From the NCBI GenBank assembly GCA_016199935.1, contig JACQFS010000070.1, positions 1 to 63,058 of the forward strand: a stretch of 63,058 bases of DNA, in the 5' to 3' direction. A model generated the notes under the pieces. That model ran no database searches. It saw only the letters and a list, made by a program, of their open reading frames with translations, and had not been told where the DNA came from. Origin of the DNA: Verrucomicrobiota bacterium (GTDB taxonomy: Bacteria > Verrucomicrobiota > Verrucomicrobiia > Limisphaerales > JACQFS01). Numbering within the stretch: the stretch's first letter is position 1; every line of letters starts with the position of its first letter. Position numbers and translations under genes: made by a program. Positions 16,305 to 52,588 of this stretch are shown piece after piece.

Positions 16305-17294
16305 TTACTCGCGGCCCGGCCGGATGGCTTTTTCCAAGAGCCAACATCCCATGAAACCTGGATTCTCAGCGTTGACTGTCGCTCCCCACTTCTCACAAAA
16401 CGCGACTGAGAATTTTCCGAGTTTATCGCCCTGAAGTGAAGTGCAATAGCAAAATGGACCTTTGCTTGTAGTTAAAATGATCAACGGCTGATCGCCTTCA
16501 ACGATGCACACTCCGCTGACATCAATTCCGGCTTTTGCTTGAATCCCATAAATCTGGACCAACATGAAATGAACCCAAATATCTGGTTCATTGGGAGGCA
16601 AGTGTTCTGGTTGTCTAACCCCACCGCCCTTGTAAAGTAACCCGTCGTTCGTCAGCACGAGACCATATTCACGGCTCAGTTTTTCTTCATACGCTCTTTT
16701 TTGAAAAGGAGGACATTCTTTGGCGGCGTGTTGAGTCCCGATTAATGTTGTTTCGGCTGCAACTGAAGCCTGGCTGGCTATGGAAGCTGGGCGTGCGGCG
16801 ATTTGGTCGCGCAACAGTTCCTCGATGCGTGAAAAGCCCTCTCTTTCCGCCCACTGCAAAGGGGTTTGACCAAAATCATCTGTGGCTTCGACCTCTGCTT
16901 CGTTGTCTAGCAGCAACTTGACTACATCTTCATGATTTTGCATCACAGCCAAGTGAAGAGGCGTCCTGCCACAGTTAACCCGAGCATTTACATCGGCCCC
17001 GTTAGCAAGCAGAAACTCCGCTACTTCCTTGTGGCCCCCCGATACGGCACGGTGCAATGGAGTCAAGCCTGCTGAATCCTCACAAAAAACATCAGCTTTC
17101 TTGGCAAGCAGAAACTCAACTACATCCTCGTGGCCTTCGGATGCCGCCCCGTGCAATGGAGTCCAACCATCGGAGGCCCAGTCCCTTCTGAAAACAAGTT
17201 CAGGATCATCCGTGAGTAACGCCTTTATCTTTGCCAAATCGCCTTGTTTCGCCGCTTCAAGAATTGAAACTGTCGGGCTTTTCGATGCGCTCAT
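16305..17294 (-). CDS. Ankyrin-repeat protein
   Basis: A 329-residue protein. Residues about 10-165 hold four to five ankyrin repeats, for example DGWTPLHGAASEGHEDVVEF, GLTPLHRAVSGGHKEVAEFL and CGRTPLHLAVMQNHEDVVKL. The C-terminal half (about 190-329) is a domain I do not recognise, with several Cys residues (CVIEGD region, CYCTSLQG, FCEKWGA). No signal peptide is seen. The DNA is clearly lower in GC than its neighbours, which suggests a separate origin together with the lipoproteins downstream. The role is unknown; ankyrin repeats point to protein binding. Confidence 0.85.
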   Translation of the reverse strand: MSASKSPTVSILEAAKQGDLAKIKALLTDDPELVFRRDWASDGWTPLHGAASEGHEDVVEFLLAKKADVFCEDSAGLTPLHRAVSGGHKEVAEFLLANGADVNARVNCGRTPLHLAVMQNHEDVVKLLLDNEAEVEATDDFGQTPLQWAEREGFSRIEELLRDQIAARPASIASQASVAAETTLIGTQHAAKECPPFQKRAYEEKLSREYGLVLTNDGLLYKGGGVRQPEHLPPNEPDIWVHFMLVQIYGIQAKAGIDVSGVCIVEGDQPLIILTTSKGPFCYCTSLQGDKLGKFSVAFCEKWGATVNAENPGFMGCWLLEKAIRPGRE

Positions 17295-27300: not shown

Positions 27301-27594
27301 TTACTTCGCGGCGGGGGCTTTGCCGTCGCCGAGGAAAAGTTTCACAAGGTCGTCGTGCGGACGCGCGAGGACGTGGGCGGCGACGAGTTCGCCAACTTTG
27401 CCGGCGGCCTTGGAGCCGGCGTCCACGGCGGCCTTGACGCTGGCGACGTCGCCGCGGCAGATGACGGTGATGAGACCGCCGCCGATGGGGATGGTCTTGG
27501 AGATGGTGACGTTCGCGGCCTTCGCCATCGCGTCGGTGGCTTCGACGTTTCCGGTGTAGCCTTTGGTTTCGATCATGCCGATTGCTTCGCTCAT
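27301..27594 (-). CDS. BMC-H hexameric shell protein
   Basis: A 97-residue BMC-domain protein (SEAIGMIETKGYTGNVEATD; TIPIGGGLITVICRGDVASV; ELVAAHVLARPHDDL). It is the first shell gene after pduL. The PIGGG segment falls where BMC-H proteins line the central pore. The C-terminus adds a short Lys/Ala tail. Confidence 0.96.
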   Translation of the reverse strand: MSEAIGMIETKGYTGNVEATDAMAKAANVTISKTIPIGGGLITVICRGDVASVKAAVDAGSKAAGKVGELVAAHVLARPHDDLVKLFLGDGKAPAAK

Positions 27595-27642
27595 AGTTTT
27601 TCTTTGGTTGATGGTTGAGAGTTCAGGAAATGTTCGGGGAAA

Positions 27643-28320
27643 TCATTTGATTAGATCGCACGGGGTGTTGGGCTGGAGGTTACAGGCGTTGCCCTCGTCG
27701 GTGTCAATGTGGACCTCGAGTTTGAAACTCTTGTCCACGCGACACAGCATCCGGTCGAGCGAAATGCCGCAGTCGCCGCCGATCTTCAGCTTCATCCAGT
27801 CGCCGGGTTTCACGCCGTAGTAATCCGCATCCGTCGGGCTCATGTGAACATGGCGCAACGCGCGGATGATGCCCGACTCCATTTCAAAAAATCCGGCCGG
27901 GCCCATGAGCATCCCGCCGAGCGTGCCCTTGATGTCGCCGGAACTGCGGAGCGGCAGATCGAAGCCGAGCGCGATGCCGTCGGTGTAGGCCAGCTCAACT
28001 TGGTTCAGATTTCGGCACGGGCCGAGGATGCGGAGATTGGAAATGACGCGACTGCGCGGGCCGACGAGCGTGACGGTCTCCTTCGCGGCGAACTGCCCTT
28101 CCTGATAAAGCCACTTGTGGACTTGGAGCTTGTGACCCTTGCCGAACAGCGCCTCGACCGCCTCGGGAGTCAGGTGGCAGTGACGGGCACTGACATTGAC
28201 GACCAAGGGATTGGGAGCGGCGGCAGCCTTGGGGAGAGGCTTGCCGAGCCGTTGATAAACGGCCTGCCGGACCATGTGTTCAACCACGGCTCGGTGCGGC
28301 GGGTTCGCCAAATCAGTCAT
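27643..28320 (-). CDS. pduL: Phosphotransacylase PduL
   Basis: A 225-residue phosphate acyltransferase that swaps CoA for phosphate, releasing CoA inside the compartment. Zinc-binding segments are VNVSARHCHLT and IRALRHVHMSPTDADYYG, with VTLVGPRSRVISNLRILGP between them, all typical of two-domain PduL. The N-terminal helix (HRAVVEHMVRQAVYQRLGK) resembles an encapsulation peptide. I choose the ATG at 28320; an in-frame start further upstream would run through the promoter region. It is the first gene of the BMC operon, opposite the DeoR gene. Confidence 0.95.
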   Translation of the reverse strand: MTDLANPPHRAVVEHMVRQAVYQRLGKPLPKAAAAPNPLVVNVSARHCHLTPEAVEALFGKGHKLQVHKWLYQEGQFAAKETVTLVGPRSRVISNLRILGPCRNLNQVELAYTDGIALGFDLPLRSSGDIKGTLGGMLMGPAGFFEMESGIIRALRHVHMSPTDADYYGVKPGDWMKLKIGGDCGISLDRMLCRVDKSFKLEVHIDTDEGNACNLQPNTPCDLIK

Positions 28321-28404
28321 AACTGGGCGCAGTTTTGACTGTATTTGAAAGTTTGTCAAACATTTTCTTGCACAAACTTCCACAATATACCAAACTCACT
28401 CCAG
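28321..28404. promoter_or_regulatory. Divergent control region of the BMC operon with inverted repeat
   Basis: The 84-bp region between pduL and the DeoR gene must carry both promoters. It holds a perfect 8-bp inverted repeat, AAGTTTGT (28349-28356) and ACAAACTT (28372-28379), 15 bp apart. This is a good operator candidate for the adjacent DeoR regulator. On the minus strand TTGACA (28354-28359) could be a -35 box for pduL; no clear -10 is seen. The region is AT-rich relative to its surroundings. Confidence 0.6.
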
Positions 28405-30504: not shown

Positions 30505-31674
30505 TCACTTCACCGGGAGAAACATGACGCACACCGGCGAGCCGACCTCGTGCTTCGTGCCGGTGAAGGCGAGCTTGCCCGTCGCCGCGTCCACCTTGAA
30601 GAGCGCCACGTCATCCGAGTTCTGTCCGCCGGTGATGAGCCACTTGCCCGACGGATCAAGGTTGAAGCCGCGCGGCACCTTCACCTCGGCGGGCGCGTTC
30701 TGCACGAGCGTGAGCTTGCCGTTCTCCGCGACGGAATAGACGGCGATGGTGTCGTGCCCGCGGTTCGAGCCGTAGAGAAACTTCCCGTTCGGATGCGCGA
30801 AAATTTCGGCCGTGCTGTAGCCCTTCTCCACGTTCACTCCCGCCGGCAAAGTGGAGACCGTGTGCAACTCCGTGAGCGCGCCCTTCTTCGAGTCCCACCC
30901 GAAGGCCGTGACCGTGCAGGTCATTTCATTGATGACGTAGGCGAACTTGCCCTCCGGATGAAACGCAAAGTGCCGCGGCCCGTTCCCCGGCGCGACCTTC
31001 GCGAAGGGCGGCTCGTTCGCCGTGAGCGTGGCGCTGGCGGCGTTGAGCCGGTAGATCATCACCTTGTCCATGCCGAGATCCGCGACGAGCGCGTAGCGGG
31101 CGTCGGACGAGATCGTCGCGCAATGCGCGTGCGGCTCCTTCTGGCGCGCGGGGTTCACACTGGAACCGGCGTGCTGAATGAAAGAAGTGTGCGGCTTGAG
31201 CGAGCCATCGCTGTTGACGGAAAAGGACGCGACACTCCCCCCGCTGTAATTCGCCACCACCAGCGCCTTGCCGCTCGCGTCCACGCTCAGATGCGTCGGC
31301 CCCGCGCCGCCGGAATCCTGCTGGTTGAGCAACGTGAGCTTGCCCGACGCGCGGTCCACCTTGAACGCGCTCACCCCGCCGCCACTCGGCAATTCGCCCA
31401 CCGCATACACATACCTGCCGCTGGGATGCACCGCGAGGAAGCCGGGATTCGCCGCCTCCACCGCCAACTCCGGCGCGGAGAGCTTGCCCGTCGCGGTGTC
31501 GAGCCGGCTGACGTAAATGCCTTTGCTCTTGGCGTTCTTGGCGCGCGTGTAGGTGCCGTAATAAACGAAGCACTCCTTGGAGTCGGCGGCGCGGAGCGCG
31601 GGCGCGGCGAGGGCGCCGAGGAGGAGCGCGGCAAAAAACTGCCGGCGCGATGGAGCAAGGCGATGGGTTTTCAT
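30505..31674 (-). CDS. Exported lactonase-type seven-bladed beta-propeller protein
   Basis: About 389 residues. The start SRRQFFAALLLGALAAPALR is a Tat-like signal peptide, so the protein is exported. The mature part is a lactonase-family propeller (YVYAVGELPSGGGVSAFKVD; HCATISSDARYALVADLGMD; PRHFAFHPEGKFAYVINEM), related to the E. coli YbhE 6-phosphogluconolactonase. An extracytoplasmic location argues against a pentose-phosphate role and for a sugar-lactone substrate outside. The ATG at 31674 is preferred because it opens the signal peptide. Confidence 0.85.
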   Translation of the reverse strand: MKTHRLAPSRRQFFAALLLGALAAPALRAADSKECFVYYGTYTRAKNAKSKGIYVSRLDTATGKLSAPELAVEAANPGFLAVHPSGRYVYAVGELPSGGGVSAFKVDRASGKLTLLNQQDSGGAGPTHLSVDASGKALVVANYSGGSVASFSVNSDGSLKPHTSFIQHAGSSVNPARQKEPHAHCATISSDARYALVADLGMDKVMIYRLNAASATLTANEPPFAKVAPGNGPRHFAFHPEGKFAYVINEMTCTVTAFGWDSKKGALTELHTVSTLPAGVNVEKGYSTAEIFAHPNGKFLYGSNRGHDTIAVYSVAENGKLTLVQNAPAEVKVPRGFNLDPSGKWLITGGQNSDDVALFKVDAATGKLAFTGTKHEVGSPVCVMFLPVK

Positions 31675-31742
31675 TCTGGAGTCAGACGTTCGGTGCGGTG
31701 GATTCAATCACGACGAATCGCCCGAGGCCAGCCCCAAGGAGG

Positions 31743-49500: not shown

Positions 49501-50220
49501 CTACAAATTCTGGTCCGTGAACAATTTCGTCCGCGGGCGCAGGCGGATAACCCGCGCCAGGGGCGTCCGGCCCGCCGCGGACAAAGACTCGCGCAGCGCC
49601 GCTTCCTTCCCCGCGCCCGCCGCGAGCACCCACACCTCGCGCGCCGCGGCCAGCGCCGCGTAAGTCAGCGTGAGGCGGTTCGGCGGCGGCTTGGGCGAGT
49701 TCGTGAGGTGGAGAAACGGACCGCGGCCCTGCTCGACCTCCGCCGCCGCGCCCGGAAAGAGTGACGCCACGTGTCCGTCCTCGCCCATGCCGAGGAACAC
49801 GAGGTCGAGCAACGGCATCCCGCTCGAATCCATTTCCGCCACGCGGCACAACTCCGCGTCCGCCTCCGCGACGGCGAACGCCGGGTCCGCCTCGCCGCGC
49901 AAGCGGTGGATGAAATCACCGGCGATGCCGAGCGGGGTGAACAGCGCCGACTGCGCGAGCGCAAAATTGCTGTCGGGATTCGTCGGCGCCACGCAGCGCT
50001 CATCGGCCCAGAAGAAATGCACGCCGGCGAGCGCGGCCGGCTTCGCTTGCGCGACGATTTCGCCGAAAAAAGTTTTCGTGATGCGTCCGCCGGAAAGGGC
50101 GACGGTGAAAATTTTTCACGCCGGCTGCCGCGCCGCGAGCAGCGCGAGCCACTGCGCGGCCACGGCTGCGGCGAGTTCGCGGTCGGAGGTGAATTTGAAA
50201 AGTTCGATGCGGTCGGGCAT
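49501..50220 (-). pseudogene. pgl: 6-phosphogluconolactonase gene with an in-frame TGA at codon 35
   Basis: From the ATG at 50220 the frame encodes 239 residues, the usual Pgl length: MPDRIELFKFTSDRELAAAV, then TGA at 50118-50116, then KIFTVALSGGRITKTFFGEI (the conserved VALSGG motif), HFFWADERCVAP and GMGEDGHVASLFPG. A Gly codon GGA at the TGA would fit. An internal GTG at 50022 could only make a 173-residue fragment that lacks VALSGG. The gene follows parE by 6 bp and zwf lies beyond, so its place in the pentose phosphate operon is clear. Mutation, base error and readthrough are all possible. Confidence 0.8.
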
Positions 50221-50226
50221 GGGAAA

Positions 50227-50523
50227 TCAGTCGTGACCCAGGACGCGGGGCAAATCGCGCGCGCCATACACCACGCGTTGCAACTGGAGGGAGTTGTCCC
50301 GGACGCGGTAGAAGATCAGCCACTTTCCGAAACCCGGCACCCGCCACGAGCGCCGGCCCTCGCCATGTTCCAGACGCAGCCGGCCAAGGAACGGCTGCCG
50401 CGCCAGTTCGGCGACCGCCGATTCGACGGCGTCCAAAAAGCGAAGCCCGGCTTGCGGATGCTCAAACTCGCGGGCGATGCCGGCGGCGTCAGCCTCGAAG
50501 CGGCTGGCCCGGGTGACGTTCAT
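50227..50523 (-). CDS. ParE/RelE-type toxin
   Basis: A 98-residue ParE-superfamily protein. The motifs are RFEADAAGIAREFEHPQAGL, ARQPFLGRLRLE and WRVPGFGKWLIFYRVRDNSL, the last being the strand-rich core of RelE/ParE toxins. ParE poisons DNA gyrase; the RelE branch cleaves mRNA, and the two cannot be separated here. Its ATG at 50523 overlaps the antitoxin stop by 4 nt. Confidence 0.88.
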   Translation of the reverse strand: MNVTRASRFEADAAGIAREFEHPQAGLRFLDAVESAVAELARQPFLGRLRLEHGEGRRSWRVPGFGKWLIFYRVRDNSLQLQRVVYGARDLPRVLGHD

Positions 50524-50816
50524 GCGGCCTTGCGCCTCGGCGCTTTGAGGCGCGCGCGCAGCTCGGCGCGCACGGCGGCAAAATCTTTCGCCGGGTTCCA
50601 CGGGCGATATTCATCGGCGTCCGCCTCGGCCAGCAGCTCGGCGACGGTCTTCGTGCCGTGACCATCCGGCAGCGCGGCGAGACGCGCGCGCTCCTTCTCC
50701 CGGTCGTCCAGCGCGCGCAGGCCGGCGCGGATCACGTCGCCTTCGTCGCGGTAGCGGCCGCTGGCGACCCACTTGCGGAGGATTTTTTTTGAACCGGGCG
50801 AAAGGGCGATGGTCAT
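50520..50816 (-). CDS. ParD-type antitoxin
   Basis: A 98-residue protein whose first half (IALSPGSKKILRKWVASGRY; DEGDVIRAGLRALDDREKER) is the ribbon-helix-helix of ParD antitoxins. The second half is an extended toxin-binding arm with a basic end. It is longer than the usual 80 residues. It lies 44 bp after zwf on the same strand, so the pair is inserted inside the zwf-pgl operon. Confidence 0.88.
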   Translation of the reverse strand: MTIALSPGSKKILRKWVASGRYRDEGDVIRAGLRALDDREKERARLAALPDGHGTKTVAELLAEADADEYRPWNPAKDFAAVRAELRARLKAPRRKAA

Positions 50817-50860: not shown

Positions 50861-52435
50861 TTACGTCGTCTTCGGCGCCATCGGCAGCGGGTTGCGCCAC
50901 GCGTGGCCCGCCTGCGCCAGCAAATCATCCGAGGCCACCGGTCCCCACGTGCCCGCCGAGTAAAATTCGCGGTTCGACAACGGCTTGCCATTCCACCCGG
51001 CGCGGATGGCGTCCACGATGCCCCACGCCGTCTCGACCTCGTCGCGGCGGATGAAGAGCGTCGCGTCGCCGGCGATCGCTTCGAGCAGCAGCCGCTCGTA
51101 AGCCTCGGGCGTGTAGGCGCCGAACTCGCTTTCGTAACTGAAGCTCATCCGCACCGGCCGCACCGAGAGCGACGTGCCGGGAATTTTGCCGTTGAAGCGC
51201 AGCGTGATGCCCTCCTCCGGCTGAAGCCGCAGCGTGATGGCGTTCGCATCGAGCTTCTGCCCGGCCTGCGCCGCGAAGAGCACGCTCGGCGTCGGGCGGA
51301 ACTGCACGCGCACTTCCGACGCGCCGAGCGGGAGATTTTTTCCGGTGCGCAAATAAAACGGCACGCTGCTCCAGCGCCAGTTGTCAATGAACAGCTTCAT
51401 CGCCACGAAGGTCTCCACGTTCGAGTCGGGCTTCACCTTCGGCTCCTGCCGGTAGCCGGGACGAAACTCCGTGCCGACCTGGCCCGCGAAATATTGCCCG
51501 CGCACCACCTGCTTCTCGACATCGGCCGGGCGCAGCGGCCGGATGGACTTGAGCAGCTTCACCTTCTCGTCGCGGATCGCCTCGGCTTCGAGCGTGGCAG
51601 GCGGCTCCATCGCGACGAGCGCGAGGATTTGCAGCAGATGGTTCTGCACCATATCGCGCAACGCCCCCGCCTCCTCGTAGTAGCCGCCGCGTCCGCCGAC
51701 GCCGATCTTCTCCGACACAGTGATCTGCACCTGCTCGACAGAGGCGCGGTTCCAGATCTGCTCGAAGATCGAATTGGAAAAGCGGAACATCAGGATGTTC
51801 TGCACCGTCTCCTTGCCGAGGTAATGATCAATGCGGAGGATCTGCTTCTCGTGCGCGTGCTTGGTGAGGCCGGCATTGAGTTCGTGCGCGGAGGCGAGGT
51901 CGTGGCCGAACGGCTTCTCCACCACCACGCGCTGCCAGTGGGCGTTCGTGTCTTTGCGCAGCAGGTTCACATTGTGCAGATGCTCCACGCACTCAGCGAA
52001 CTGGCTCGGCGACGTGGCGAGATAAAAGAGGAGATTGTCCGCCAGCTTCGGTTCGCCAAAACTTTTCAGCAGCTTCGCCAGCTTCTCGTAGGCCGCCGCG
52101 TCGCCGAAGTCACCCATGCAGTAGAAGATGTTCGCGGAAAAAGCGGCCCACACTTTTTCATCCACCGGCTTGGTGCGCGAAAACTGTTTCAACGCCTCGC
52201 CCAGCTCAGCGCGAAACGCCTCGTCCGTCTTCTCGCGCCGCGCGAAGCCGACCACGCGGAACGGCACGGGCAGCGACTGCTCCTTGAACAGATGGTAGAG
52301 CGCGGGGATGAGCTTGCGCGCCGTGAGGTCGCCGCTCGCGCCAAAGATGACAATCGTGCAGGGGTCCACCGCTTTGCGGCCGTCGTCGAGCTTGCACATC
52401 AGCACTTCTTCCAGAGCGTCCATGCGCGCGAGCAT
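50861..52435 (-). CDS. zwf: Glucose-6-phosphate 1-dehydrogenase
   Basis: About 524 residues. The coenzyme motif TIVIFGASGDLTARKLIPAL, the substrate site RIDHYLGKETVQNILMFRFS and the structural segments NRASVEQVQITVSEKIGVGG and PVRMSFSYESEFGAYTPEAY are all typical. It makes 6-phosphogluconolactone and NAD(P)H from glucose 6-phosphate, the substrate supplied by Glk. The start is uncertain: ATG codons at 52435, 52423 and 52399 and a TTG at 52459 precede the conserved part. Confidence 0.95.
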   Translation of the reverse strand: MLARMDALEEVLMCKLDDGRKAVDPCTIVIFGASGDLTARKLIPALYHLFKEQSLPVPFRVVGFARREKTDEAFRAELGEALKQFSRTKPVDEKVWAAFSANIFYCMGDFGDAAAYEKLAKLLKSFGEPKLADNLLFYLATSPSQFAECVEHLHNVNLLRKDTNAHWQRVVVEKPFGHDLASAHELNAGLTKHAHEKQILRIDHYLGKETVQNILMFRFSNSIFEQIWNRASVEQVQITVSEKIGVGGRGGYYEEAGALRDMVQNHLLQILALVAMEPPATLEAEAIRDEKVKLLKSIRPLRPADVEKQVVRGQYFAGQVGTEFRPGYRQEPKVKPDSNVETFVAMKLFIDNWRWSSVPFYLRTGKNLPLGASEVRVQFRPTPSVLFAAQAGQKLDANAITLRLQPEEGITLRFNGKIPGTSLSVRPVRMSFSYESEFGAYTPEAYERLLLEAIAGDATLFIRRDEVETAWGIVDAIRAGWNGKPLSNREFYSAGTWGPVASDDLLAQAGHAWRNPLPMAPKTT

Positions 52436-52495
52436 TGCCGAGCGGGGGAGGGTTGGCAACAGGGCAAACGGAGCGGCGATGTTCTCAAATAAAAA

Positions 52496-52588
52496 CCTCT
52501 CCGCGTCCTCTGCGCAGTCCTCTGCGTCCTCTGCGTTAAAAATTAAACGCAGAGGGCGCAGAGGGTGACGCAGAGGAACGCAGAGGGA
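52496..52588. repeat. CCTCTGCG repeat with inverted partner
   Basis: CCTCTGCG recurs on one arm, with a 9-bp spacing for the last pair, and CGCAGAGG three to four times on the other, joined through GTTAAAAATTAAAC. The whole can fold as one stem in the intergenic space before tal. Confidence 0.88.

Follow-up and report, generated by a model that had tools for sequence, protein, structure and literature searches.

We found that the gene for 6-phosphogluconolactonase (pgl) in the window (the whole stretch of 63,058 nucleotides that we analysed) is broken by a single in-frame TGA and, judged by its alignment with relatives, is free of decay apart from that one codon. The stop most likely has an ordinary cause, either a wrong or minority base or a recent mutation, and is not a new reading of the genetic code. 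We tentatively favour a base that is false or unfixed in the assembly, which we infer to be of the same kind as a stop in leuS of the same draft genome. This draft, G000 (5.03 Mb, 260 contigs, 97.7% complete, 4.3% contaminated), is presumably itself a metagenome bin. The 57 other genomes compared with it all lie outside its family, as do the genomes among the listed matches of an order-wide search.

The pgl frame comprises 239 residues on the minus strand, begins with the ATG at 50220, and has the TAG at 49501–49503 as its next stop (Table 1). The preliminary description had placed an in-frame TGA at codon 35 (50116–50118), and it is there: the reading frame is interrupted at this codon and resumes in frame with KIFTVALSGGRITKTFFGE. 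When the TGA is counted as an amino acid, the product matches TIGR01198, the 6-phosphogluconolactonase model, with 157.1 bits (cut-off 124.45) and PF01182 with 187.8 bits. The 204 codons on the 3′ side of the stop have a GC3 of 0.86 and a codon score of +0.18 per codon, where the longer frames in the window have a median score of 0.24. The TIGR01198 match, the GC3, and the positive codon score rule out a random open frame and leave a broken gene.

Table 1. Coordinates in the window of the pgl segments, the neighbouring genes, and an additional lactonase gene.
Feature	Position	Strand	Basis
pgl codons 1–34, 5′ of the stop	50119..50220	-	aligned with N-termini of relatives
In-frame TGA, pgl codon 35, next base A	50116..50118	-	read from sequence
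Remainder of pgl, 204 codons and TAG stop	49501..50115	-	TIGR01198 match and conserved columns
parE-type gene of a type II toxin-antitoxin pair	50227..50523	-	PF05016 (scanned as 50227–50520)
parD-type antitoxin gene	50520..50816	-	PF03693; TIGR02606 below its cut-off
zwf, glucose-6-phosphate dehydrogenase, intact	50861..52459	-	TIGR00871
PF10282 beta-propeller lactonase, RR-containing N-terminus	30505..31707	-	export judged by eye

The pgl alignment comprises 99 loci (93 distinct rows) and has 46 strongly conserved columns, i.e., columns kept in at least 95% of the rows. All 46 are intact over the whole frame of the window gene, as they are in 45 of the 93 relatives. Together with the TIGR01198 score above its cut-off, this bears out the earlier claim that the rest of the gene is well conserved. 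Its mean identity to the relatives is 0.530 (median 0.522, rank 54 of 93), and the best relatives, mostly records named as Verrucomicrobia or Limisphaerales metagenome bins, share 60–63% identity on the 3′ side of the stop. Codons 1–34 have a mean identity of 0.348 (median of the relatives 0.371, rank 37 of 91); judged by their in-frame alignment with the N-termini of relatives, the start and the reading frame are right. Across the aligned part of pgl, all 108 relative loci (94 distinct sequences) are free of stops. The order-wide search matched 266 of 320 genomes, with roughly 150 rows among the matches listed, and among these listed matches (roughly 150 of the 266 genomes) only G000 carries a pgl stop.

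The residues found at the stop column in the 93 distinct rows are G (40), A (14), S (9), D (7), P (6), R (5), K (3), N (2), T (2), and E (1), and four rows have a gap. By this spread of residues, the stop sits in a variable, tolerant loop. Glycine, which had been proposed to fit here, is the commonest residue of the column, but nine others occur too, and it is not a unique choice. A shorter functional Pgl could conceivably start on the 3′ side of the stop, where there is an open GTG at 50022 (giving 173 residues) and an ATT two codons past the stop. We regard this as barely credible: the GTG product would lack the conserved SGGR motif (residues 43–46) as well as the N-terminal part, and 91 of the 93 relatives have over 25 of the 34 residues of that part.

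On the minus strand, the gene order is zwf, parD, parE, and pgl. The gene was said to lie in its natural place behind zwf, and zwf indeed precedes it with the same orientation, an arrangement found in 70 of 94 distinct relatives, but a parD-parE pair that the description overlooked intervenes. The parE start overlaps the parD stop (ATGA), and the parE stop lies 6 bases upstream of the pgl ATG. No parD-parE-like pair was found in the 108 loci of relatives (tblastn, E 1e-3), and the search for DNA-level phage relatives found none. The window gene thus resembles the Pgl of known zwf-pgl loci (TIGR01198, PF01182) in its score above the cut-off, its conserved columns, and its position behind zwf, and differs from it by the internal TGA and by the intervening parDE, which is unseen in the loci of relatives. 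The parDE pair shows that the zwf-pgl operon of this lineage has really been disturbed, and this speaks slightly for a true loss of pgl. On the 5′ side of zwf, positions 52495–52583 contain a possible inverted repeat with matches to microRNA models, all below the gathering scores and the best of them on both strands.

A genuine recent nonsense mutation, nearly as likely as a false base, would mean a strain or population without cytoplasmic Pgl, in which 6-phosphogluconolactone would hydrolyse spontaneously or be dealt with by a gluconate by-pass, and gnd would complete the pathway. The disturbed operon fits this, and both zwf and gnd lack an internal stop. Only one of the PF01182 proteins in the draft is of the Pgl type; the other was rejected as a second Pgl since it is NagB-like, although it scores under every nagB cut-off. 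Two strong PF10282 lactonases, one of them in the window at 30505–31707, were likewise rejected as cytoplasmic substitutes, as their N-termini carry an RR motif and look exported (judged by eye), and a third PF10282 match in the draft is partial and barely over the cut-off (23.1 versus 21.7 bits). No second cytoplasmic Pgl was thus found among the PF01182 and PF10282 matches of the draft (97.7% complete), which adds weight to the lack of cytoplasmic Pgl that the preliminary description had offered as one option. In Staphylococcus aureus, pgl is called the sole non-essential enzyme of the oxidative branch, and in pgl mutants of Escherichia coli and Listeria the lactone reportedly loses its phosphate, leaves the cell, and undergoes hydrolysis (PMC10399904). 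By analogy, a genuine loss of pgl would probably be survivable. A recent stop would come without decay, so the intact remainder of the gene is expected under this reading. Against it stand the absence of a second lesion, with no loss at any of the 46 conserved columns, and a stop in leuS, which ought to be functional; the lone stops of this draft are therefore not to be trusted.

The leuS stop came from a scan for lone in-frame stops flanked on either side by coding signal, which covered the window and 39 other stretches (721,580 bases in all, 14% of the draft). Strict settings missed the pgl stop and were relaxed. The scan gave 11 rows, of which eight looked, on inspection by eye, like gene ends or short frames outside genes and were dropped, and three were kept (pgl, leuS, and a gene for an RDD-family protein); since only stops well inside genes are detected, three is a lower bound. 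In the RDD-family gene, a TAG (L175, G000:C256:100001-120000, 16499–16501) separates the GYF_2 and RDD domains, and the pieces on its two sides look like one gene; the stop column has no consensus across eight aligned relatives. In leuS, the stop is a TGA (L186, G000:C148, 5773–5775; next base C), and the flanking pieces match TIGR00396 at 143–467 (best stretch) and 481–842 of 843. The draft has six leuS matches, of which one is strong and five rank below the last of the matches listed. All 29 relatives have Trp in the leuS stop column, and the G000 sequence differs at two others of the 301 fully invariant columns.

Leucyl-tRNA synthetase, the product of leuS, is essential. The stop in the one strong leuS of the draft must therefore be missing from most of the living population or be read through, and the leuS UGA is more telling than the pgl stop: it is either a false base or a hint that UGA is read as Trp. 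A leuS stop also occurs in one of 47 other genomes, a lone TAG in G043, which belongs to the same order (L255, G043:C454, about base 864 of the locus). The G000 leuS stop was itself selected by the stop search and gives no rate, whereas the G043 stop was unselected. If this one event is typical, its frequency (47 genomes, about 2.9 kb from each) corresponds to some tens of stops per 5-Mb draft, enough on that single event to explain the pgl stop.

On the strength of these leuS stops, we tentatively place the wrong or unfixed base first. The TGA would be a consensus error or a minority strain variant that entered the consensus; most cells would carry an ordinary sense codon in the variable loop of pgl and make normal Pgl. 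The lone stops in leuS and the RDD-family gene of G000 and the leuS TAG of G043 point in this direction, as do the two types of stop among them (TGA and TAG), which sporadic changes would give, and a pgl gene with 46 of 46 conserved columns, typical identity, and relatives whose 108 loci all lack a stop in the aligned part of the gene. Several points weigh on the other side. The counts amount to one to three events, and the leuS argument to two, one of them selected; pgl stops are rare elsewhere, with G000 the only case among the matches listed; leuS could be kept alive by readthrough instead of its stop being an error; and pgl is dispensable in other bacteria, so that a true mutation needs no special excuse. 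The pgl stop resembles other lone nonsense codons in draft genomes, being single, lying in an otherwise intact gene, and occurring in a draft where more than one stop type is affected and leuS is hit too; a literature search on lone stops in metagenome assemblies found nothing. Since lone in-frame stops in such drafts reach even leuS, a single one gives little support to gene loss or recoding.

UGA is the ordinary and main stop codon of this genome. It ends 396 of 512 coding frames picked by codon usage from the 721,580 sampled bases, compared with 60 for TAG and 56 for TAA. The gene for release factor RF2 (prfB) is present, and its start region carries an in-frame GGAGG TTT CTT TGA, which we take to be the layout of the well-known RF2 frameshift site. 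The stop usage and this RF2 gene rule out a genome-wide code change with UGA as a sense codon (codes 4 and 25). Selenocysteine recoding at the pgl TGA was rejected, as neither tRNA-Sec nor SelB was found in the draft (97.7% complete): the sole match to the tRNA-Sec model above the cut-off (52.2 versus 47 bits) is named tRNA-Ser(tga) by ARAGORN, and seven SelB matches all fall short of the cut-off (best 161.4 versus 242.25). We read the best of these, a 406-aa frame beside tRNA genes, as EF-Tu. None of the 41 tRNAs found (ARAGORN named 40, and the other was read from its alignment) has a UCA anticodon, in a set that is incomplete with Cys and Ile unnamed, and there is no suppressor tRNA among them. 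The single one that ARAGORN did not call, a 98-nt RF00005 match (L165, G000:C122, 112–209), has a long variable arm and the anticodon loop CTTGGAA, which is without TCA.

The pgl UGA might instead be read through, chiefly as Trp by the near-cognate tRNA-Trp, to give useful full-length Pgl. Among the stops, TGA leaks most in E. coli, and the amino acid put in is mostly Trp; a single reporter position showed 0.7 to 6% readthrough according to the stop used, and the same paper quotes an older value of up to 14% for TGA (PMC11126739). By analogy, some full-length Pgl could be made in this way, and Trp would probably be tolerated in the pgl loop, where the column takes 10 residue types plus gaps. 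We nonetheless consider useful readthrough improbable. Trp is absent from the stop column in all 93 aligned rows, strong misreading would be costly where TGA ends 396 of 512 sampled frames, and prfB retains its UGA frameshift site. A UCA anticodon is absent from the 41 tRNAs of the incomplete set, and the third lone stop of the draft is a TAG. The RNA on the 3′ side of the pgl stop has no unusual structure (z -0.50), and no RNA family was matched at the stop site. The one observation that keeps this option alive is the leuS TGA at an invariant Trp. The preliminary description had offered loss of cytoplasmic Pgl, a wrong base, and readthrough without choosing; all three survive with unequal weight, the wrong base having gained from the leuS TGA and readthrough having lost from UGA being the main stop and from no special decoder having been found.

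The tRNA-Trp(CCA) of the draft (L142, G000:C69, 1501–1576) has the ordinary A9 and G24, without an A9C or G24A change. Its anticodon stem is topped by a wobble, G27-U43, and loss of this top pair reportedly promotes the decoding of UGA (PMC13092985). This wobble is common to 26 of the 29 relatives examined, and the same source gives 2677 standard-code genomes in which a tRNA-Trp with a 4-bp stem is the only one, so that recoding does not follow from such a stem. That UGA is misread as Trp well enough for both pgl and leuS, as an early ambiguous stage toward UGA reassignment and perhaps with help from the G27-U43 wobble that many tRNA-Trp of the order share, is very improbable. The in-frame UGA at a leuS Trp recalls the UGA-to-Trp reassignment that a figure legend in PMC13092985 gives for Ca. 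Pinguicoccus supinus, also of the Verrucomicrobiota. In contrast to that reassignment as described there, G000 keeps UGA as its main stop and RF2 with its frameshift site. If the UGAs of pgl and leuS were both true, they would make a rare natural case of tolerated UGA ambiguity.

Elsewhere in the window, at 27301–28383, a gene for a bacterial microcompartment (BMC) shell protein adjoins one for a PF06130 phosphate propanoyltransferase, which suggests a bacterial microcompartment locus.
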